Assembly: GCA_026984935.1 (NCBI GenBank)
Contig: JALSRD010000037.1
Span: forward strand, 1 to 63,437
Source: Desulfobacterales bacterium
Lineage (GTDB): Bacteria; Desulfobacterota; Desulfobacteria; Desulfobacterales; JALSRD01
Direction of reading: 5' to 3'
Length of the DNA stretch: 63,437 bases
Notes under the pieces: generated by a model
The model's database searches: none
What the model saw: the letters and a program-made list of their open reading frames with translations, nothing else
Told to the model about the DNA's origin: nothing
Made by a program: the position numbers and the translations under genes
Part shown: one piece after another, positions 931 to 40,039 of the stretch
Numbering within the stretch: the first letter of the stretch is position 1
How the letters are laid out: each line of letters opens with the position of its first letter

Positions 931-2844
931 CTATTTATCGTCAAGACACCTTACCGCACCGCCCGTACGCAGCCCGTTGGCCACAGCCAGCAGTTCCGAA
1001 GCTTCGTGGACAAATACCGCCACGGTCACGGTCATGATCCCGAGCAGTGCCGTGGGAATCAGCACGGTCAGCACCGCCAGGGAAAAAAAGATATTCTGGA
1101 GGCTGACCCGGCGTGCCAGTTTTCCCAGGTTCAGCGCATAAACCACCTTGGAAAGGTCGTCCCCCATGAGGGCCGTGTCAGCCGCCTCGATGGCGGCATC
1201 CGTACCGGCGGCGCCCATGGCCATACCCACGGAGGCCCGCGCCAGGGCCGGAGCATCGTTGATGCCGTCGCCCACCATGGCTACCGCGCTGTATTCTTCT
1301 TCAAGCTGCTCGATGTTCCGGATCTTGTCTTCCGGCTTCAAGTCCGCCCGCACATCGTCGATCCCCAGGTCGGCGGCCAGGGCTTCGGCCGTGCGCCGGT
1401 TGTCCCCGGTAAGCATGATCACGTGGATCCCCATCCGCCGCAGGTTCCTGACGACCGCCCCGGCCCGGGGCCGAACCTGGTCACGGATGGCAATCACCCC
1501 CAGAATTTTATTGCCGGTTCCCACCAGGATGACCGTCTTGCCCTGCCCCCTTAGGTTTTCAATCTGACCTGTCGGCAGCTCCCCGCGGCCGACGTCAAAC
1601 ATAGCGTGATTCCCGACGAAGACCTCCTGGCCGGCAATCACGGCCCGGGCACCGTGACCGGCCACGGCTTGAAAATCCGAAGCCGGCTGCAATGCCAGGC
1701 CCTGATTTTCGGCCTCGCCGGTGACGGCGTGTGCCAGGGGATGCTCGGACAGCTTCTCCACGCTGGCGGCCATTATGAGCAGTGCGTCCTCGTCACCGTC
1801 CAAAGCCAGAACATCGGTTACCACCGGCTTGCCGACAGTCAGGGTTCCGGTCTTGTCGAAGGCCAACGCCCGTATCTTCCCCAGGTTCTCCAGGCTGACG
1901 CCACCTTTGATGAGCACCCCGTTTTTGCCGGCCTGTCCGATTCCGGCCGCAATGGCCACCGGCATCGACATGATCAGGGCACAGGGCGCCGCCGCCACCA
2001 GCAACACCACCGCCCGTATGGCCCAGGGACCCGGGGGCAGGTCCAGCAGGTAGGGCAATACCAGCAGCAACAGGGACGTGAAAAGCACCAGCGGTGTATA
2101 GCGGCGGCCGAACCGCTCGATAAAAGCCTGGGTTTTACCTTTCTGTTCCTGGGCTTGTTCCACCAGGTGAATCAACTTGGACAACGTATTGTCCTTGAAA
2201 GCCGCGGTGGTTTCGATTTCCAGGGTGCCCTGCTGATTCAAGGTGGCGGCAAAAACCCGCATCCCCTCGCCCTTTTCCACCGGTATGGATTCCCCGGTGA
2301 CAGCCGCCTCGTTGACGCTGGATTTGCCTTTCATGATGATGCCGTCCGTGGCGATGGATTCTCCGGGCTTGACGATAAATACATCGCCCACTTGGAGCGC
2401 CTCGGCCGGCAGGGTCACCTCCCGGCCTTCCCGGATGACCACGGCTTCTTTGGGCGCCAGATCCAGAAGCTTGCGGATGGAAGCCCGCGTGCGCGCGTAG
2501 GTATACTCCTCCAGCCCTTCTGCGGCACCGTAAAGGAAAACCAGAAAGGCGGCTTCATCCCACAAACCCAGCCAAATGGACCCGGCCGTGGCGGCGATCA
2601 TCAGCACATCGATGCCGATTTTTCTTTCTTTGAGCAATTCTTCGATGCCCTCGCGAGCCCAGTGATACCCGCCAATGGCAATGGCCGCGATATACATGCC
2701 GATCTCGATGCGGTTCGCAACCAGTTGCAGGTGCGCCAACGCAAAGGCAACTCCGGCAATCACACCCGAAATCAGCGCATTGCGCATGGGTGGATGGGCA
2801 TACCACTTGCCGTCGAAACCGATCTCAGGTTCTTTTTCTGACAT
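931..2844 (-). CDS. P1B-type heavy-metal-exporting ATPase
   Basis: About 637 residues. It exports a divalent transition metal across the inner membrane at the cost of ATP. Visible landmarks are the TGES actuator motif (about residue 183), the phosphorylated Asp in DKTGTLT (about 330), GDGxNDAPAL near the C-terminus, and eight or so membrane segments. The membrane metal motif is Ala-Pro-Cys (286-288) rather than CPC or SPC, and the last membrane helix has HEASE. Together these fit a P1B-4-like or unassigned divalent-metal subtype rather than a copper pump. There is no N-terminal HMA domain. The start at 2844 (MSEKEP) is preferred over ATG 2868 because only it has an upstream GGAAAG. It follows the ArsR gene in the same operon, which has a zinc-type sensor site, so Zn/Cd/Co/Ni are the likely substrates. 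Confidence 0.9.
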   Translation of the reverse strand: MSEKEPEIGFDGKWYAHPPMRNALISGVIAGVAFALAHLQLVANRIEIGMYIAAIAIGGYHWAREGIEELLKERKIGIDVLMIAATAGSIWLGLWDEAAFLVFLYGAAEGLEEYTYARTRASIRKLLDLAPKEAVVIREGREVTLPAEALQVGDVFIVKPGESIATDGIIMKGKSSVNEAAVTGESIPVEKGEGMRVFAATLNQQGTLEIETTAAFKDNTLSKLIHLVEQAQEQKGKTQAFIERFGRRYTPLVLFTSLLLLVLPYLLDLPPGPWAIRAVVLLVAAAPCALIMSMPVAIAAGIGQAGKNGVLIKGGVSLENLGKIRALAFDKTGTLTVGKPVVTDVLALDGDEDALLIMAASVEKLSEHPLAHAVTGEAENQGLALQPASDFQAVAGHGARAVIAGQEVFVGNHAMFDVGRGELPTGQIENLRGQGKTVILVGTGNKILGVIAIRDQVRPRAGAVVRNLRRMGIHVIMLTGDNRRTAEALAADLGIDDVRADLKPEDKIRNIEQLEEEYSAVAMVGDGINDAPALARASVGMAMGAAGTDAAIEAADTALMGDDLSKVVYALNLGKLARRVSLQNIFFSLAVLTVLIPTALLGIMTVTVAVFVHEASELLAVANGLRTGGAVRCLDDK

Positions 2845-2900
2845 GGTCACACATCTTTCCGCAAACATTTGAGCATATTTTCAATCTACAGGCCAAAAAA

Positions 2901-3260
2901 TTATTCACGCACATGGCTGGCAGCCGCATGGATCAGATCGATGACGTGATCGTCATCCAGGCGGTAGTACACCTGTTTGCCCTGCTTGCGAAAAACCACC
3001 AGTTTGCGTCCTTTCAGCAGCCGCAACTGGTGGGACACGGCCGAAATCGAAAGCTTGACCACCGTGGCCAGGTCGCAAACACAAAGCTCTTCCATGGACA
3101 GGGCCAATACGATACGCAGACGTGTGGGGTCCGACAGCACCTTGAAAGTTTCAGCCAGGTCGGTGATATGCCGGTTTCCCGGCAGGCGTTCGTTGACGCG
3201 GCCGACTTTGCGATGATCGACAACGGTTACCTGGCAAGTTTCGACGTTCGTTTTCTTCAT
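2901..3260 (-). CDS. ArsR/SmtB-family metal-sensing repressor (copy 1)
   Basis: One hundred and nineteen residues with a winged-helix ArsR fold. Two known metal sites of the family are visible. ELCVCDL (Cys60, Cys62) is the alpha-3 site, and an N-terminal Cys9/His16 pair could complete it. At the C-terminus Asp103-x-His105, His116 and Glu119 reproduce the spacing of the SmtB alpha-5 zinc site. It is the first gene of a two-gene operon with the P1B ATPase (56-base gap) and should repress that operon until zinc or a similar ion binds. A candidate operator sits just upstream of its own start. Confidence 0.9.
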   Translation of the reverse strand: MKKTNVETCQVTVVDHRKVGRVNERLPGNRHITDLAETFKVLSDPTRLRIVLALSMEELCVCDLATVVKLSISAVSHQLRLLKGRKLVVFRKQGKQVYYRLDDDHVIDLIHAAASHVRE

Positions 3261-3281
3261 TGGGCACCTAAAGGTTACAAT

Positions 3282-3328
3282 TGATCATGCGTTCAACTAT
3301 AATATAAGCCTCACCGCCATAAAATCAA
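3282..3328 (-). promoter_or_regulatory. Promoter and ArsR operator of the metal-ATPase operon
   Basis: On the minus strand TTGATT (3323-3328) and TATATT (3301-3306) are separated by 16 bases, a plausible sigma-70 promoter. Just downstream, TGATCA-TG-CGTTCA (3282-3295) is an imperfect 6-2-6 dyad of the TGAaCA/TGtTCA type bound by ArsR/SmtB repressors. The same arrangement recurs upstream of the second ArsR gene. Confidence 0.5.
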
Positions 3329-3446
3329 CCCGCTTTCGGCCGTCGGAACGCGTTTTTTGTTTCTCCCGCAACGAAAGCCGGCGGAACGTTCTGGAGAGCG
3401 CACGCAATGCGCAGCGAGGCCTGCGGCCAGGATGCGGTTTCCGGCA

Positions 3447-5819
3447 CTAAAAAAGGATGCGCAGGCCGCCGCCGAAACCGTAGTCCGAGTGCCACTGGCC
3501 GATGAGCGTAAAATTCTTGTGAACCATGTAGGACAGACCCACGCGGCTCTCCCAGCGGTCGTGCGTATCGTACTGGGCATCTCCGAAAAGCGCCAGGCGC
3601 GGTGTCAGTTCAAGAGATTTTGCCAGGATGAAGCGCGCGCCGCCGTCCGTATCGATCCAGGCCCGGGATTCCAGGTTGAGCGGCAGCAGGTAGCGGATGC
3701 CGAACACACCGCGCGAATCCTCGGTGTCGCCGTCCACACCCAGCAGATCGGCGCCGCCGAACACCGTGAAAAACCGGTTGATGTAACGATTCCAGCTAAA
3801 GAGGGTTTCCCATTCGGTGCCGTCCACCTCCTGCCAGCCCACCTCCCACTCGGCGGTCAGGATGTTGCGGATATCGGCCAGCGCCAGAAAGCCTTCGGTC
3901 ATGTTGCTCAGAGCGTCGGCCTGGCCTGAAAAATACCACGTGTCCCGGTAAAGCGCCGGCCTGACCGCCGCCAGCTTGGGATCGAGGCCGAAGCCCTCGT
4001 AATGCACCACACGGGCCATGCCGTTTTTCATGTGGTAGAGCAGATGGCAGTGGAAAAACCAGTCGCCGAACTCGTCGGCCTTAAACTCGATGACGGTGGT
4101 GGACATGGGCGCCACATCGACGGTATGCTTCAGCGGCGCGTAGGCACCCTGACCGTTGATGACGCGAAAGAAATGGCCGTGCAGGTGCATGGGGTGGTGC
4201 ATCATGGTGCGGTTGATCATGATAAAACGCACGATCTCGCCGCGACGGATACGGATCATATCGCTTTCCGAAAGCGCCCGGTTGTTGAGAAACCAGACGT
4301 AGCGCTCCATGTCGCCGTCCAGGGTGAGGCGGATTATGCGCATCGGCTTGCCGGCTGCAAAACCGGTGGGCTTGACAGCCCGCAGTCTGGCATAGGGCGC
4401 CCAGGGGCGGCGGGCATCCACGCCGTCTGCGGCAAGATCGCCGGAGGAGGCGACATCGGCTGCCAGCCAGCCGAAATCCGCCGCGTATTTTTTGCCGCTG
4501 CGCGCGTTTGGATCCGGCATCGGCCGCGCCGGGCTGCCGTGGCCGGCCTCGCCGGATCCCGACGGAGGCGGCATGGACATGCCGCCGGCTTTGCCCGCCC
4601 GGCCTTCGGGAAACGCGGGCTTCATCTTCATCTTCGCACCGGCATGCGAACGCGCCATTTTCCGCATGCCCGGCATACCACCCATTTTCATGCCGGCCAT
4701 GCCGGGCTTATCGAAGTCCCCGGCCTGCACCCTGGCATCGCTCATGCCCATGCTGCCGGCCGGCGTTGCAGCAAAGACACGTGCAAAGCTCAGCTTTCCC
4801 ATGGTATGATAGAGGTTGGGCCGGGGCACATCCGGAGCCGGGTGACGCTTTCCGGAGCCGATCCAGACCGATGCATAGCCGGAACCGTCATGGGCCGTGG
4901 CCCGCAATTCGTAGGCCCCGCCGGCGGGAACGCGGATGGACACATCGTAAGTCTCGGCGACGCTGATGAGAAAGCGCTTGGCCGCCACCGGCTTGACGTC
5001 CTGGCCGTCGGCGGAAATGATGGTCATCGGCCCGCCGGCGAACTCGACGTAAAAATAGGTCGTGGCAGAACCGTCCACCAGACGCAGGCGCAGACGCTCA
5101 CCGGCTTTGGCGGACAGCATCAGCTGCGGCCGGCCGTTGGCCAGGAAACGGTCGTAAGCGACGTCGGCGATGTCCATGGGCGGCATGCGCTGAAGTTCGC
5201 GCTTGAAGTAGTCGCCGAGCATCCCCAGGCGGGCGGCGCCCAGAATGCTCTGGCGGCTGCCCTTTTCCAGCGCATACCACTCGCTGCCGCGCCTGAGGGT
5301 TCGATTGACTTCGTAGGGGTCCTCGTTGGTCCAGTCCGAGAAGAGCACCACCTGGTCCTGGTCGAACTTTGCCGTCTTGCGGCGCGGCTGGATCACAATG
5401 GCGCCGTAAACGCCGCTTTGCTCCTGCAAACTGGTGTGGGAGTGATACCAGTAGGTCCCGCGCTGGCGGATGGGAAATTCATAGGTGAAGGTCGTGCCGG
5501 CCGCGATGGGCGGAAAGCTGACATAGGGGACGCCGTCCATGCCGGGGGGCACCAAGATACCGTGCCAGTGAATGGATGTCGATACCGACATCTTGTTATG
5601 GACACGGATGCGGGCCGTATCGCCCTCTCGAAAGCGCAGTGTGGGGCCCGGAATCGTGCCGTTGATGGTCATGCCCGGCACCGCTTTGCCGGTGATGTCG
5701 ACCTTTTGCCGGGCAATGGTCAGGTCGTAGGCAACCGTTGCCGCACGGGCGGGCGTCAGGAACAAAGACAGCGTAAAAAGCAGGCCTGTGAATAACACGA
5801 TGGCGGCACGTATGCGCAT
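3447..5819 (-). CDS. copA: Multicopper oxidase (CopA-type) fused to a CopB-like outer-membrane barrel
   Basis: Seven hundred and ninety residues, longer than CopA (about 600). A Sec signal peptide spans residues 1-26. The copper sites are all present: HWHG (His84, His86), WYHSH (His126, His128), HPMHLHGH (542-549) and HCHLLYHM with Cys591, His596 and a likely axial Met601. Residues about 355-430 form a Met/His/Gly-rich linker like the copper-binding insert of CopA/PcoA. After residue about 625 the sequence changes to amphipathic strands resembling CopB/PcoB and ends in LRILF, with the C-terminal Phe typical of outer-membrane barrels. In most bacteria CopA and CopB are separate. The fusion should tether a periplasmic cuprous oxidase to the outer membrane. 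A strong AAGGAGGAAG site precedes the ATG. It lies 37 bases after the response regulator in the same operon. Confidence 0.9.
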   Translation of the reverse strand: MRIRAAIVLFTGLLFTLSLFLTPARAATVAYDLTIARQKVDITGKAVPGMTINGTIPGPTLRFREGDTARIRVHNKMSVSTSIHWHGILVPPGMDGVPYVSFPPIAAGTTFTYEFPIRQRGTYWYHSHTSLQEQSGVYGAIVIQPRRKTAKFDQDQVVLFSDWTNEDPYEVNRTLRRGSEWYALEKGSRQSILGAARLGMLGDYFKRELQRMPPMDIADVAYDRFLANGRPQLMLSAKAGERLRLRLVDGSATTYFYVEFAGGPMTIISADGQDVKPVAAKRFLISVAETYDVSIRVPAGGAYELRATAHDGSGYASVWIGSGKRHPAPDVPRPNLYHTMGKLSFARVFAATPAGSMGMSDARVQAGDFDKPGMAGMKMGGMPGMRKMARSHAGAKMKMKPAFPEGRAGKAGGMSMPPPSGSGEAGHGSPARPMPDPNARSGKKYAADFGWLAADVASSGDLAADGVDARRPWAPYARLRAVKPTGFAAGKPMRIIRLTLDGDMERYVWFLNNRALSESDMIRIRRGEIVRFIMINRTMMHHPMHLHGHFFRVINGQGAYAPLKHTVDVAPMSTTVIEFKADEFGDWFFHCHLLYHMKNGMARVVHYEGFGLDPKLAAVRPALYRDTWYFSGQADALSNMTEGFLALADIRNILTAEWEVGWQEVDGTEWETLFSWNRYINRFFTVFGGADLLGVDGDTEDSRGVFGIRYLLPLNLESRAWIDTDGGARFILAKSLELTPRLALFGDAQYDTHDRWESRVGLSYMVHKNFTLIGQWHSDYGFGGGLRILF

Positions 5820-35282: not shown

Positions 35283-35475
35283 GTGAACCTCGCCGTTTCA
35301 CTCGACAAAGCTGCACGCCTGTATCCGGGGAAAAACCGGCGTGGTGTGCGGTAACCGTCGTTTTACTCACCGCCAGGCGGCATCCCACGTCCAGTGCAGG
35401 GCCGCAGTGCTGGCCGACCAGGGAATTGAAAAGGACGCGCGCATCGCCATCGTACACCAGAGCCGTCCCTGTTCC
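35283..35475 (+). pseudogene. Acyl-CoA synthetase N-terminal fragment with frameshift
   Basis: GTG 35283, after AAAGGAGCC, starts NLAVSLDKAARLYPGK, the usual opening of long-chain acyl-CoA ligases. A run of A at 35332-35336 has one base too many; the next frame continues as VVCGNRRFTHRQAASHVQ and GIEKDARIAIVHQSRP. After about 65 residues homology stops, so some 450 residues of the enzyme are gone. It is a dead remnant. Confidence 0.75.
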
Positions 35476-35545
35476 CCAGTTTGGATCAAAACGCCAGGGG
35501 TATTCAAAGAGCCTCGTGCCGGAAAATCTGTCAAACGCAAATAAA

Positions 35546-35908
35546 TCAGCCCATCGATTTGTGATGGTGCCTGCCTTTCAACTCTTCCACCACCTGGCGG
35601 ACATCCGCCAGGCATCAGCGGCCTTTTGGATTTTTAGCTGCACAATCACACCGCCCGCCCTTCTTCCCAGTCGCAATTGCGGCCATTATCGTTGATTTGC
35701 CGTTGTCCAGATAATCCTGCTCGATTTCCTTCCGGGTATGTTCAAAGCAAAAACAGACCAAGTCGTCACTTTTGAATTTAACTCCGCCCCTTGGCTGATC
35801 AGTTTGCGAACGGTCTGCTCCCTTGTCAACCATCTTCAAAAAATTGTCCCGATCCATCTCTATTTTTCCTATGTTTGATTTGTTTTGATAAAAGCGATTC
35901 ATTTTCAT
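35546..35908 (-). CDS. CopZ N-terminal-type [2Fe-2S] protein, probable selenoprotein read through UGA
   Basis: The frame runs from ATG 35908 (TGATG overlap with the previous gene; ATG 35857 with AGGA upstream is an alternative). VCFCFEHTRKEIEQD and GGRCDCAAKNPKGR match the BFD-like [2Fe-2S] domain of CopZ and the Csac_0668 family. The family normally continues NPxGR-Cys-Cys. Here the first of these codons is TGA (35615-35617), the next is TGC for Cys, and the same frame continues LADVRQVVEELKGRHHHKSMG to a TGA at 35546-35548. The extra 22 residues look like the normal family C-terminus. A perfect hairpin lies just after the TGA. I therefore read it as selenocysteine. A plain stop would leave a protein lacking one conserved Cys pair. 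It ends the mer-like operon. Confidence 0.75.
35593..35612 (-). promoter_or_regulatory. SECIS-like hairpin directly after the in-frame UGA
   Basis: In RNA sense CCUGGCGG-AUGU-CCGCCAGG forms an 8-base perfect stem with a 4-base loop containing GU. It begins two bases after the UGA. Bacterial SECIS elements are coding hairpins just after UGA, but the loop is usually some 15 or more bases away, so this one is close. A second weaker stem (GGUGGUG with CACCAUC) lies further down. Confidence 0.45.
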
Positions 35909-36441
35909 CAATACGCCATATAATAATCAGCCGCGATTCTTAGTTCAACCATCTCCTTCAAGGTAACCGGTTTAAAGAATTTGGCGGAGACTTTTTTCAG
36001 TGGATTATCCGGCGTGCCGATTTTCGAAACAATCAAGTAGCCGGTGTTAATATAAAATTTCACGCCCCGGTCTTTTAGCATATTCAGAAAAGCGCCATAC
36101 GTCTGCGGAACTTTGCCGAGGTCGACACCAAACTGTTTTGACATTGCCTGACGCAGGTTTGGCGGGATTTTGTATCCCTGGATATCATCTTTGCCGCTCC
36201 AGCCGACCTTGTAAGTGTTAATGGCATCGGCGTCGACCAGGACGTTTACCTTGTAACCGGATTCCAGTGCCGCCCACATGATATTATAGGCCACGCATAT
36301 CTGGGCGTCATCTTTTTTCAACCCGGTTTTCAAATGGACCATAAACGTCTTTTTGCCTTCACCGGCCAAAGACGCCAATGGGACAGACAAAACGCAGATA
36401 ACGGTAAATAGCGCGCTAAAAGCCATCATATTTTTTCTCAT
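35908..36441 (-). CDS. Exported DsrE-like protein
   Basis: One hundred and seventy-seven residues. Signal peptide at 1-26 (ending PLASLAG). The mature part has a DsrE/peroxiredoxin-like start (FMVHLKTGLKKDDAQICVAYNIMWAALESG) and VNVLVDADAI. The single Cys in AQICVAYN is the only thiol in the mature chain. It lies 66 bases after merA and overlaps the [2Fe-2S] protein gene. A role in periplasmic sulfur or mercury handling is inferred from position. AAGGAGAAC precedes the ATG. Confidence 0.8.
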   Translation of the reverse strand: MRKNMMAFSALFTVICVLSVPLASLAGEGKKTFMVHLKTGLKKDDAQICVAYNIMWAALESGYKVNVLVDADAINTYKVGWSGKDDIQGYKIPPNLRQAMSKQFGVDLGKVPQTYGAFLNMLKDRGVKFYINTGYLIVSKIGTPDNPLKKVSAKFFKPVTLKEMVELRIAADYYMAY

Positions 36442-36507: not shown

Positions 36508-37911
36508 TTAAACACAGCAACTCAGCCTGGATACGTCTTTCTTGAAGGAAAGCGCCGCTATTTTTAAGGACTCCGCCAGGGTCGGAAACATGGGCAAGGA
36601 GTTGATCACATCATCTAGGGTGTTTTTGTTTTTCACCAGCATCATGGCCTCGGCAATCAGCTCCCCGGCATCCGGTGCCAGGATATGAACCCCCATGATT
36701 GCTTCGGTCAAAGGATGAACGGTCATGTTGATCAGTCCCTCGGATCTGTTCATCAGAATGGCCCGCGGAAGGCTTTCAAAGGAAACCGTGCGGCAGTTGC
36801 AGGTGCCCAACCGCTGCATCTGGTCCGCTTCCGTCAGCCCGACACCGGCCAGCTGAGGGTCGGTAAAAACCGTAAACGGCACCGTATCGTAATCGATGCT
36901 GTCCGTGGAACCGTTCAGCGCGTTGCCGGCGGCCAGGGTACCTTCTCTGCCGGCCGTTGGCTCAAAACGGGCTGGTTGGTTGGTGACATCTCCAATGGCA
37001 AAAATATGCGCCTGAGAAGTCTGAAAGGTTTCGTTGACCACAACTGCCTGTCTTGCGTTGACCTCGACCCCGGCAACATCGAGCCCCAGGCCCTCGGTAT
37101 TGGGATTTCTGCCGGTGGCCAAAAGAATTTCGTCGGCGGTGACCGTGAGCTCTTGGCCATCAACGGAGATGGCCAGCGTCTTCTTCCCGTTTTGCATTCG
37201 CGCATGCCGGAATGCTTCGGCGGTGATGATGTCAATACCCTCGGCCTTCAGCACCACCGCCAGGCGGCGGGTCAGTTCCGGCTCGGCAAACCGCAAAATT
37301 CCGGGGCTCCTTTTAACCACCGTCACCCTGCTGCCGAAACGGGCAAACATCTGAGCGAATTCGATGCCGACCGGACCCGCACCGATAACCATCAGTTCTG
37401 TGGGCAGGTGCCGGAGTTCCAAGGCTTCGACATGCGTAATATACCCGGTTTCCCGGATGCCTTTAATGGGCGGCACCACAGCCTTGGAGCCCGTGGCGAT
37501 AATAACCTTATCAGCCCGGAAGGTTTCACTGTTCACCCGAACTTCAGTGTCTGAGGTAAAACTTGCGAAGCCTTCTGTAAATCTGACTTTTTCAAGTCTA
37601 CCCAGCACTTTGGCATACTTCTCTCGCCGCATGCGCTCGACCAGGGCCAGCGCATCTTCCATGAGTGCTCTAAAGTCAAATTTTTCAACTTCAAACTCTA
37701 TTCCCGGCATCCTATGGTTTTGTGCCAGATGCAAAAGTTCGCCGGCCCGCAGCAACCGCTTGGAAGGTACACAGCCCACATTGACACAGGTGCCACCCAA
37801 TGGCAGTCCGGCATTAATCATAACTGTCCTGGCTTTCAGTTCATTGGCCCGAATGGCGGCGGCGAAACCGCCAGCCCCACCACCGATGATAATCATGTCA
37901 TAGGTTTGCAT
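36508..37911 (-). CDS. merA: Mercuric reductase-type flavoprotein
   Basis: Four hundred and sixty-seven residues from ATG 37911 (AAGGAG upstream). FAD motif IIIGGGAGGFAAAIRA, the redox pair GTCVNVGCVPSK (Cys42, Cys47), an NADPH motif MVIGAGPVGIEFAQ, and the C-terminal vicinal pair Cys465-Cys466 that is diagnostic of MerA among disulfide reductases. It reduces Hg(II) to volatile Hg(0) in the cytoplasm with NADPH. No N-terminal HMA (NmerA) domain is present. It is divergent from the sigma/anti-sigma/MerTP operon. Confidence 0.92.
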   Translation of the reverse strand: MQTYDMIIIGGGAGGFAAAIRANELKARTVMINAGLPLGGTCVNVGCVPSKRLLRAGELLHLAQNHRMPGIEFEVEKFDFRALMEDALALVERMRREKYAKVLGRLEKVRFTEGFASFTSDTEVRVNSETFRADKVIIATGSKAVVPPIKGIRETGYITHVEALELRHLPTELMVIGAGPVGIEFAQMFARFGSRVTVVKRSPGILRFAEPELTRRLAVVLKAEGIDIITAEAFRHARMQNGKKTLAISVDGQELTVTADEILLATGRNPNTEGLGLDVAGVEVNARQAVVVNETFQTSQAHIFAIGDVTNQPARFEPTAGREGTLAAGNALNGSTDSIDYDTVPFTVFTDPQLAGVGLTEADQMQRLGTCNCRTVSFESLPRAILMNRSEGLINMTVHPLTEAIMGVHILAPDAGELIAEAMMLVKNKNTLDDVINSLPMFPTLAESLKIAALSFKKDVSRLSCCV

Positions 37912-38058: not shown

Positions 38059-38622
38059 ATGCAAAACGTCTTCAGGCCCACCGATGAGCAGCTCATGCTC
38101 GCTCTTAAAGCAGGAGACATAGCCGCTTTTGAAACCCTTTACGACCGCTATAACAAACGCCTGTTTCGTTATATCCTGCGGTTTGTAACCCAAAGGGAAG
38201 TCGCTGAAGATATTTTGCAGGAGACTTTTTTACGGATCCTGAAGCACCGAAAAGTTTATTTGGAAAAGTCCCGCTTTTCGACCTACCTGTTCACCATCGC
38301 CCGAAACCTCTGTTTTGACAATTTAAAATCCTGGCAGGTCAGACATCTGAATGCAAACCAGGCAGACACAATCGAGCGCACTGGTGATGCCTATCAAGAT
38401 TCCCATAAGTCACTGGAAGACCGTGAAATGGGGAAAATCCTCCAAAAAGCCATCGACAATCTTCCGGCAGATCAAAGAGAGATACTCACGTTGAGTAAAT
38501 TCAGCGGGCTGTCCTACGAGGAGATCGCGCAGATTGTGGGATGCACACCTGCCGCGGCAAAGCAAAAAGCATACAGGGCGCTGCTCGGCCTGAAACGGGA
38601 CCTGAAAAGTTTTAAAACCTAA
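38059..38622 (+). CDS. ECF-type RNA polymerase sigma factor
   Basis: One hundred and eighty-seven residues. Region 2 is clear (AFETLYDRYNKRLFRYILRFVTQREVAEDILQETFLRI), as is region 4 (LPADQREILTLSKFSGLSYEEIAQIVGCTPAAAKQKAYRAL). It precedes its anti-sigma factor by 56 bases. It probably transcribes this operon and perhaps the divergent merA operon. No MerR regulator is present in the locus. Confidence 0.92.
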   Translation: MQNVFRPTDEQLMLALKAGDIAAFETLYDRYNKRLFRYILRFVTQREVAEDILQETFLRILKHRKVYLEKSRFSTYLFTIARNLCFDNLKSWQVRHLNANQADTIERTGDAYQDSHKSLEDREMGKILQKAIDNLPADQREILTLSKFSGLSYEEIAQIVGCTPAAAKQKAYRALLGLKRDLKSFKT

Positions 38623-38678
38623 AAATACCTCCGTTACTTTTTGGCCGCAGGATCGTATAAATGGCAAAGGGGTGGCCC

Positions 38679-39356
38679 ATGGACTGTGAATCCCTAAAAA
38701 ACTATATTCCGTCAATCTTGTCCGGCGATGTTTCCGAGGATGAGCATCGTCGGGCAGCGCATCACCTGCAGACGTGCCGCCAGTGCCGCCATGCAGAAGC
38801 GGAAATGGCGCACATCTGGTCGCTGCTGGATCGTGTCGGAAGTCAGGAGCCGTCGAAAGCGGTGAAATCCCGCCTGATGGCAGCAGCCCAAGTGGAATTG
38901 GGGAATATGCCCCCTGCTTGGTGGAAAATGCTGCTACGGCCATCCTTTTTTAGAACCGTTTCGTCGGCGCTGGGGCTGTCGTTAATCATCAGCCTGATTT
39001 TTCCATATGACAGGGCCGTGGCGCTGTGTGAACAGAACATCTTGAATGGTGGTATCTTTGCCTTCCTGCCGCAAGACCTTGTGTATTTTTTGCTGGGCGT
39101 GCTTTACGGCCTGGTTCCCGTGGCGCTTGCCGAATTTTTCTGCTCAAAGACCATTATGGATCGCCCCGGTGTGATGGGATTCGGTGCCGGGCTGGTTACG
39201 GCGGCCTTTCTGATTCCGTTTTTCGTCGTCCAGTGCCCGCAGTTTACATTCAGCCTGGTTCTGACCATGGTTTTGGGAATCACCGCCGGGGCAATGGCAG
39301 GAGGCCTGGGGACATCAATGGCCCTGAACAGGTTAAAAAGAGTGACTTCCCGGTGA
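38679..39356 (+). CDS. Zinc-finger anti-sigma factor with membrane domain
   Basis: Two hundred and twenty-five residues from ATG 38679, which has AAAGGGG upstream (ATG 38661 is less likely). The N-terminal ZAS motif is HHLQTCRQC (His-x3-Cys-x2-Cys). Residues 85-225 form four or five membrane helices. It should hold the ECF sigma factor at the membrane until a signal, perhaps thiol or metal stress, releases it; a zinc-thiol finger is a natural target for Hg(II). This trigger is inference. Confidence 0.85.
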   Translation: MDCESLKNYIPSILSGDVSEDEHRRAAHHLQTCRQCRHAEAEMAHIWSLLDRVGSQEPSKAVKSRLMAAAQVELGNMPPAWWKMLLRPSFFRTVSSALGLSLIISLIFPYDRAVALCEQNILNGGIFAFLPQDLVYFLLGVLYGLVPVALAEFFCSKTIMDRPGVMGFGAGLVTAAFLIPFFVVQCPQFTFSLVLTMVLGITAGAMAGGLGTSMALNRLKRVTSR

Positions 39357-39424: not shown

Positions 39425-40039
39425 ATGAAAAAAATAAACGCATCAAATTCAAAGGGGAACATAGGCCTGCTCGGCGCGGGCATAGCCGCCTTTTTTGCCT
39501 CCATATGCTGTGTCGGGCCGCTGGTGCTCCTGTCTTTGGGAATAAGCGGCGCCTGGATAGGAAACTTCAGTGCCCTGGAAGCCTACCGGCCGCTGTTTAT
39601 GGCCATCACGCTAGCCTTTCTGGGATTCGCCTTTTATCAGGTTTACCAAAGGCCTGGGGCAATGCTGATCGATGGCGACGAGGATTGCGGATGTCCGACG
39701 AATAAAAGAAGAAGCAAGTTTATGCTCTGGGGCGTAACCATCTTCATTGCAGCCCTGTTTGCTTTTCCTTATCTGTCTCCAGTCGTACTGGCCGACAATC
39801 CCGATAACGGTGAGATGCGCCTCGAAAGGGCGGTATTAGACATTGATAATATGACCTGTTCTTCTTGCACTGTAACGGTAAACAGAAGTTTAACCAGGAT
39901 AGACGGCGTCAAAGAGGCCAAGGTTACTCTTAAACCGCCGGTGGCCGTCGTTTTCTTTGATCCATCAAAAGTCTCCCAACAAGTGCTCGTAACCGCAACA
40001 ACCAATGCCGGATATCCATCTTCGGTGCGAAAAAAATGA
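39425..40039 (+). CDS. Mercury transporter MerT-MerP fusion
   Basis: Two hundred and four residues. The MerT part has SICCVGPLV (Cys28-Cys29) in helix 1, and a cytoplasmic DCGCP pair (Cys88, Cys90). After a third helix the chain continues into an HMA domain with MTCSSC (Cys145, Cys148), as in MerP. MerTP fusions import Hg(II) for reduction by MerA. GAGGAGCTG precedes the ATG. It is the last gene of the sigma/anti-sigma operon. Confidence 0.9.
   Translation: MKKINASNSKGNIGLLGAGIAAFFASICCVGPLVLLSLGISGAWIGNFSALEAYRPLFMAITLAFLGFAFYQVYQRPGAMLIDGDEDCGCPTNKRRSKFMLWGVTIFIAALFAFPYLSPVVLADNPDNGEMRLERAVLDIDNMTCSSCTVTVNRSLTRIDGVKEAKVTLKPPVAVVFFDPSKVSQQVLVTATTNAGYPSSVRKK

Follow-up and report, generated by a model that had tools for sequence, protein, structure and literature searches.

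The available parts of two reviews (PMC13188914, PMC9312934) list CopZ-family (2Fe-2S) selenoproteins in two forms: form 1 (WP_245779778.1, cd10141), for which PMC13188914 gives the motif GxUC, and form 2, the CU form represented by Csac_0668. The form 1 table entries in these sources give neither a function nor a gene neighbourhood. The reviews cite Zhang and Gladyshev 2008 (PMC2398784) for form 1; neither CopZ nor 2Fe-2S occurs in the accessible portion of its main text. CopZ terms were not found in the accessible part of PMC12013277, nor CopZ-related terms in PMC5029168, and the available part of PMC4510573 offers a hydrogen-related guess for Csac_0668. Our literature search, which lay mostly outside subscription papers and leaves absence unproven, found no paper on neighbourhoods, SECIS conservation or MerA fusion.

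The locus described here lies in a 63,437-nucleotide stretch of a Desulfobacterales genome (contig JALSRD010000037.1), hereafter called the window. On comparative evidence, the gene very probably encodes a small BFD/CopZ-type [2Fe-2S] selenoprotein of about 100 residues, in which UGA would be recoded as selenocysteine (Sec) through a bacterial SECIS element (bSECIS). As a CopZ-type GxUC selenoprotein it is of a kind already known. The present analysis adds the covariation of the SECIS, a form that stands alone and lacks the zinc domain of CopZ, another subfamily with UGA, and the mer or ArsP neighbours at some loci. Its GRUC matches the GxUC motif and the domain type of form 1, a likeness of name and motif only, as far as the available descriptions of that form go. 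The initial annotation had called the protein CopZ-type and related it to Csac_0668. The relation of the domains stands (22.3 bits to NF045877 CopZ_Nterm_CU, over positions 98–157 of 161), but the score lies under that model's cut-off of 190 and, whereas Sec is second of the pair in Csac_0668 as the available sources present it (CU), the window protein carries Sec first (UC). NF047645 CopZ_Nterm_CC aligns over its C-terminal part, including NPxGR-C-C; it is a Cys-Cys family by name, in contrast to the U-C of the window protein, and its cut-off was missed as well. Pfam gives the window protein no match to the zinc domain zf_CopZ (PF18423) at E ≤ 1 and no HMA match, and Fer2_BFD (PF04324) stays under its gathering threshold of 26, at 13.9 bits for the read-through protein and 16.5 for the frame before the UGA.

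The gene occupies the minus strand, on which the initial annotation was silent; translation of plus-strand frame 1 over 35546–35908 yields nothing comparable. The frame runs from an ATG at 35908 to a final TGA at 35548–35546, and directly behind NPKGR it holds an in-frame TGA, followed by TGC and 21 sense codons, LADVRQVVEELKGRHHHKSMG. The ATG at 35908 shares bases with the stop codon of the gene before it (TGATG). Translation may just as well, or more probably, begin at the internal ATG at 35857, which stands behind AGGAAAAAT; Sec is residue 98 from the first start and 81 from the second. The open reading frame ending at the UGA has 98 residues. With read-through the NF047645 score climbs to 53.9 bits, from 37.3, and the peptide behind the UGA is conserved in dozens of genomes, so the frame is more than chance. 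Since the UGA would pass for a stop and the window member scores under every NCBIfam cut-off, this conserved protein is at risk of appearing in genome annotations of the phylum as a truncated hypothetical.

Features of the locus, with positions in the window
Feature	Position	Strand	Basis
Selenoprotein gene	35546..35908	-	translation with TGA = U; 47 of 146 genomes, counting the window's own, have a UGA member
In-frame UGA coding for Sec, the U of NPxGR-U-C	35615..35617	-	translation, sequence, alignment
bSECIS upper stem-loop, columns 16–22 with 27–33 of A1, apical loop AGGU at 35595–35592	35585..35602	-	alignment, covariation, bSECIS model
8-bp perfect hairpin, CCTGGCGG-ATGT-CCGCCAGG	35593..35612	-	present in sequence; overlaps the SECIS
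Upstream gene, 177 aa, signal-peptide-like start	35908..36441	-	unmatched in Pfam and NCBIfam
merA-type mercury(II) reductase, C-terminal ...LSCCV, inferred start ~37911	36508..37911	-	TIGR02053, 514.5 bits (cut-off 454.45)
ECF sigma factor, divergent from merA	38059..38622	+	Pfam Sigma70_r2, Sigma70_r4_2
Putative anti-sigma factor	38661..39356	+	weak: zf-HC2, 21.0 bits (cut-off 22.2); NF052375, 23.9 (cut-off 100)
MerT-HMA mercury transport protein	39425..40039	+	PF02411, 106.9 bits; PF00403, 34.3; NF045683 MerT_CopZ_Se, 150.1, under cut-off 375

Profile searches revealed a family spread across the phylum. A locus search with the single window protein had returned two loci only, and NF047645, searched over 146 related genomes, gave 50 match rows in 48 genomes. 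In 48 of these rows (47 genomes) the protein is short and TGA stands in the NPxxR-U-C column; the other two, L104 and L105, are of greater length and read Cys-Cys. A profile of 47 members, from an alignment hereafter called A2, was scanned over 395 genomes of the phylum and matched 74, with a TGA member in 57 of them at E ≤ 2.3e-10; seven of the 57 are same-order genomes, so the two samples overlap. Five more genomes carry weaker UGA members, four of another subfamily (G139, G341, G246, G108) and one a fragment (G377). Ten weak rows (positions 2–46 of 70, frames of 147–297 aa) were set aside, as they resemble NifU or other proteins. The second subfamily (L145, L146, L147, L148) has a TGAC or TGVC segment, and its UGA too stands in the NPRGR/SPRGR-U-C column. 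Among the members outside the order, counted as a 52-member set, L145 and L148 are not included, being same-order, nor is L152 (G466), a UGA member with CDG in place of CxC that escaped our search motif. L178 duplicates the gene of L129, and L110, L111, L113, L115, L118, L121 and L125 duplicate genes of order-level loci.

The alignment column and the codons around it behave as a recoded position would. Cys takes the place of Sec in seven homologues (L139, L140, L141, L142, L056, L104, L105), as the initial annotation expected in placing the UGA at a conserved Cys, and Ser or Thr does so in L143 and L144, where the next Cys and the remaining four Cys are kept. The extension of 22 residues proposed behind the UGA is conserved in homologues, with the peptide CLxDVRxVVD recurring across the phylum sample, and the Cys next to Sec is kept in 16 of 16 compared sequences. 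By codon position, variability behind the UGA is highest at the third (1.10 bits, vs 0.80 at the first and 0.67 at the second). An inner TGA in all 102 members is built into the search motif; the independent evidence is the inner-stop record of both profile searches, in which no match row with inner stops carries TAA or TAG without TGA inside the frame. Final stops of the 102 members are mixed (46 TGA, 41 TAA, 15 TAG).

The window's own genome, 99.45% complete, encodes the machinery for Sec. It holds selC (tRNA-Sec; 76.1 bits, cut-off 47), for which ARAGORN agrees with a tRNA-SeC of anticodon tca, selB (387.2 bits, cut-off 242.25), selA (613.6 bits, cut-off 267.9) and selD (362.3 bits, cut-off 125, with one in-frame TGA). 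With all four genes present and the read-through peptide conserved, the initial reading of UGA as Sec is borne out. Genome-wide recoding of UGA is not needed: the upstream gene and the selenoprotein gene both end in TGA, and selA, selB, selC and selD are there. The selD of this genome (G000:C42:48155-49078, L021) is itself a selenoprotein gene, with its in-frame TGA in ...TCGUAAK.... Across the phylum, selA occurs in all 62 genomes with a UGA member (listings compared by eye; P 0.0007 if genomes are independent), which is weak support for the Sec reading because selA is already in 355 of the 395 genomes. The Cys forms L139–L142 likewise stand in selA-positive genomes.

A conserved hairpin follows the UGA at the distance expected of a bSECIS. 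In a 48-row alignment of the region downstream of the UGA (A1), the stem has a loop that mostly reads AGGU. Its cells are paired at 93.6% vs 89.7% in shuffles, two-sided changes fill 11 cells vs 2.7, and the covariation score is 0.220 vs 0.147; none of 500 shuffles reached the pairing, the two-sided-cell count or the covariation score. Two weaker measures, pairs with a two-sided change and further pair types, were reached by 118 and 102 of the 500. Compensation appears at columns 18/31, where C-G becomes U-A in six rows, and at 22/27, where C-G becomes A-U in four. RNAalifold alone recovers only four of the stem pairs.

The hairpin also agrees with a general model of these elements. According to the available part of PMC13188914, a bSECIS has a loop of 3–9 nt with G in the first two places, a stem of 4–16 bp, a distance of 16–37 nt from the UGA and a minimum free energy of −7.5 or below. 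With the stem required to be contiguous over 4 bp or more, this model fits 44 of the 48 order members (40 with the loop at 18–19 nt), compared with 5–14 in 20 synonymous shuffles; among 52 out-of-order members, which were not used to find the stem, it fits 48, compared with 5–17, and places the loop at 18–19 nt in 45, compared with 1–7, all these members being related and so not independent draws. Most out-of-order members thus have the SECIS in the same place. Four of the 48 and four of the 52 fail at −7.5 kcal/mol, and four of the 44 fits use another loop. Two of three Cys homologues do not fit; the third, L056, fits with a loop 35 nt away. The bSECIS check suggested by the initial annotation came out positively for the window, with the AGGU loop 19 nt after the UGA on a 6-bp stem whose basal G-A pair is open, at −9.7 kcal/mol. 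Read by SelB with tRNA-Sec, this hairpin right behind the UGA would turn the codon into Sec.

The initial annotation had pointed to a different hairpin. Its perfect 8-bp stem exists, but it is not the conserved structure: over 48 homologues it pairs at 70.5%, no better than the shuffled mean of 70.0%, and we rejected it as the SECIS in favour of the stem with the AGGU loop at 19 nt. It looks like an accident of local codons. Within the window this hairpin may win over the SECIS: as a 9-bp rival it reaches −18.6 kcal/mol for 41 nt, vs −9.7 for the SECIS, and foldings of 41 and 82 nt yield the rival, that of 69 nt the SECIS. The 5' arm of the rival begins 2–3 nt after the UGA and would probably lie inside the ribosome at decoding.

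In structural comparison the protein comes nearest to bacterioferritin-associated ferredoxin (Bfd), at a level that may be chance. An AlphaFold2 model built with Cys for Sec has a pLDDT of 90.9 over 74 residues. Foldseek found no significant match to it in the PDB; among the matches listed, Bfd (4e6k, 6e6r) is the nearest solved fold, at E values of 4.0, the best, and 5.1. VIA-align gives Bfd 4e6k a Z of 5.7 (rmsd 2.5 over 53 residues) vs 3.1 for the next unrelated row, where a Z under 8 can reflect a chance arrangement. The model is consistent with a Bfd-like fold; we know of no UC or CC pair in Bfd. PDB 2hu9, which we take to be the N-terminal domain of Archaeoglobus fulgidus CopZ, is titled 'Mercuric transport protein periplasmic component'. 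Its CYC...C...NPSGRCC aligns with the window protein at an E of only 0.018, and it differs in having Cys for Sec and no Cys at position 41.

Numbered along the 74-residue core in A2, Cys6, Cys8, Cys43 and Cys53 are common to 16 hand-chosen sequences, whose Sec column holds U, C, S or T. We propose that these four hold a [2Fe-2S] cluster, because they stay in the two homologues that have Ser or Thr where Sec would be. The CDG of L152 in place of CxC argues against this arrangement. Sec52 would then be a free selenol/thiol site beside the cluster, possibly together with Cys41, an additional Cys of the short form. Cys41 is invariant in 47 A2 rows; L154, itself a UGA member, and several of the Cys homologues lack it, which makes the Cys41–Sec52 pair a guess.

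The mercury setting of the window gene is real. The mercury operon named in the initial annotation was recovered, with merA as the second gene upstream, on the strand of the selenoprotein gene, and MerT-HMA divergent; the 177-aa gene in between is presumably DsrE-like. On the other side, at 35284–35480 (plus), lies an 87-aa frame without a Pfam match, which looks like a 5' remnant of a gene for an AMP-binding acyl-CoA ligase. Searched by tblastn with the window's genes, loci L055–L178 together with the window gave MerA or MerTP matches at six of 102 UGA loci (the window, L062, L098, L155, L169, L171), three of them (L155, L169, L171) in one GTDB family (f149), and also beside the Cys forms L139 and L140. 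The other 96 loci, including same-genus L057 (4.5 kb), had no such match within the stretch at hand. The ECF sigma and anti-sigma pair is not recurrent, with one ECF match (L163) among loci L055–L178. In L139 a Cys form, made up of zf_CopZ (31.5 bits, cut-off 28.4) and a BFD-like Cys-Cys domain, is fused ahead of MerA (TIGR02053, 568.1 bits); this fusion lies at 1433–3559 (minus), with MerTP matches on either side. In L098 a frame between merA and the UGA gene (4400–5045, plus) carries an in-frame TGA too, within the motif PTUGIC, and is possibly a further selenoprotein in a mer operon. In L090 the open frame just upstream of the UGA gene has, by eye, a MerR-like N-terminus, suggestive of a truncated regulator gene.

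Beyond mercury, the gene's neighbours are varied. From 86 neighbouring frames we dropped seven as likely spurious, by eye, and scanned the remaining 79, each close to a UGA gene and on its strand. The Pfam family that recurs most often is ArsP_1 (nine, with SaoE and SO_0444 models too), ahead of TauE (5), FeS (4), DsbD_2, FMN_red and Flavin_Reduct (3 each), and cation efflux and LMWPc (2 each); flavodoxin models match two, and NCBIfam adds arsenate reductase (2) and ArsG (2). The nine ArsP_1 neighbours were told by similar starts, with only L133 scanned singly, and six of the nine loci belong to one GTDB family (f146). Of the 79 neighbours, the majority match no metal family. When the 48 order-level loci were compared with one another by BLAST, no cluster of neighbours spanned more than five loci, save two of six loci each that fall on the gene itself and comprise the protein and the opposite-strand frames overlapping it. 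The common thread that we see in these neighbourhoods is soft metals and metalloids.

In one rival reading the UGA is an ordinary stop, with the gene ending at NPKGR and the downstream frame a leftover. A 98-residue open reading frame does exist, and an automatic gene caller is expected to end there, yet CLxDVRxVVD is conserved behind the UGA with third codon positions the most variable, inner stops are never TAA or TAG without TGA while gene ends are mixed, and termination would lose a Cys kept in every compared sequence; we regard this reading as extremely improbable. A canonical CopZ N-terminal metallochaperone for copper is also improbable, if less drastically so. The best NCBIfam match, NF047645 at 53.9 bits, speaks for it; against it, that score is under the cut-off of 100 and covers only positions 80–137 of 138, and neither zf_CopZ nor HMA is found by Pfam.

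The function of the Sec residue is less settled than its presence. It may well be, at not quite an even chance, that the Sec site is where soft metals or metalloids, Hg at this locus and As or Cu at others, become bound or reduced, and that it hands them or electrons to a partner, for which MerA or an efflux permease would be candidates. There is also a considerable chance, itself short of even, that Sec is made but serves as a cluster ligand or structural residue, the protein being a general electron carrier like the ferredoxin Bfd and its mer and ars neighbours incidental. Bfd as nearest library fold (VIA Z 5.7) fits a carrier, as do the FMN reductases (3), flavin reductases (3) and flavodoxins (2) among the 79 neighbours, most of which lack a metal family, and the confinement of ArsP and mer loci to few GTDB families. 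Set against it are the Ser or Thr that L143 and L144 tolerate in the Sec column with the other four Cys kept, the fusion of a Cys form to MerA, and the lead of ArsP_1 among neighbouring Pfam families. More tentatively still, this minimal selenoprotein half of CopZ might be a detachable module for detoxifying thiophilic metals and metalloids, with a metal- or redox-active Sec52/Cys41 site by the [2Fe-2S] cluster, and might work with MerA, MerT or permeases of the ArsP/SaoE type.

Together, the covarying SECIS and the phylum-wide set of members make this a firm selenoprotein family. From the MerA fusion and the mer and ArsP neighbourhoods at some loci comes a first function open to testing, in which selenium chemistry beside an iron-sulfur cluster would take part in the handling of mercury or arsenic.
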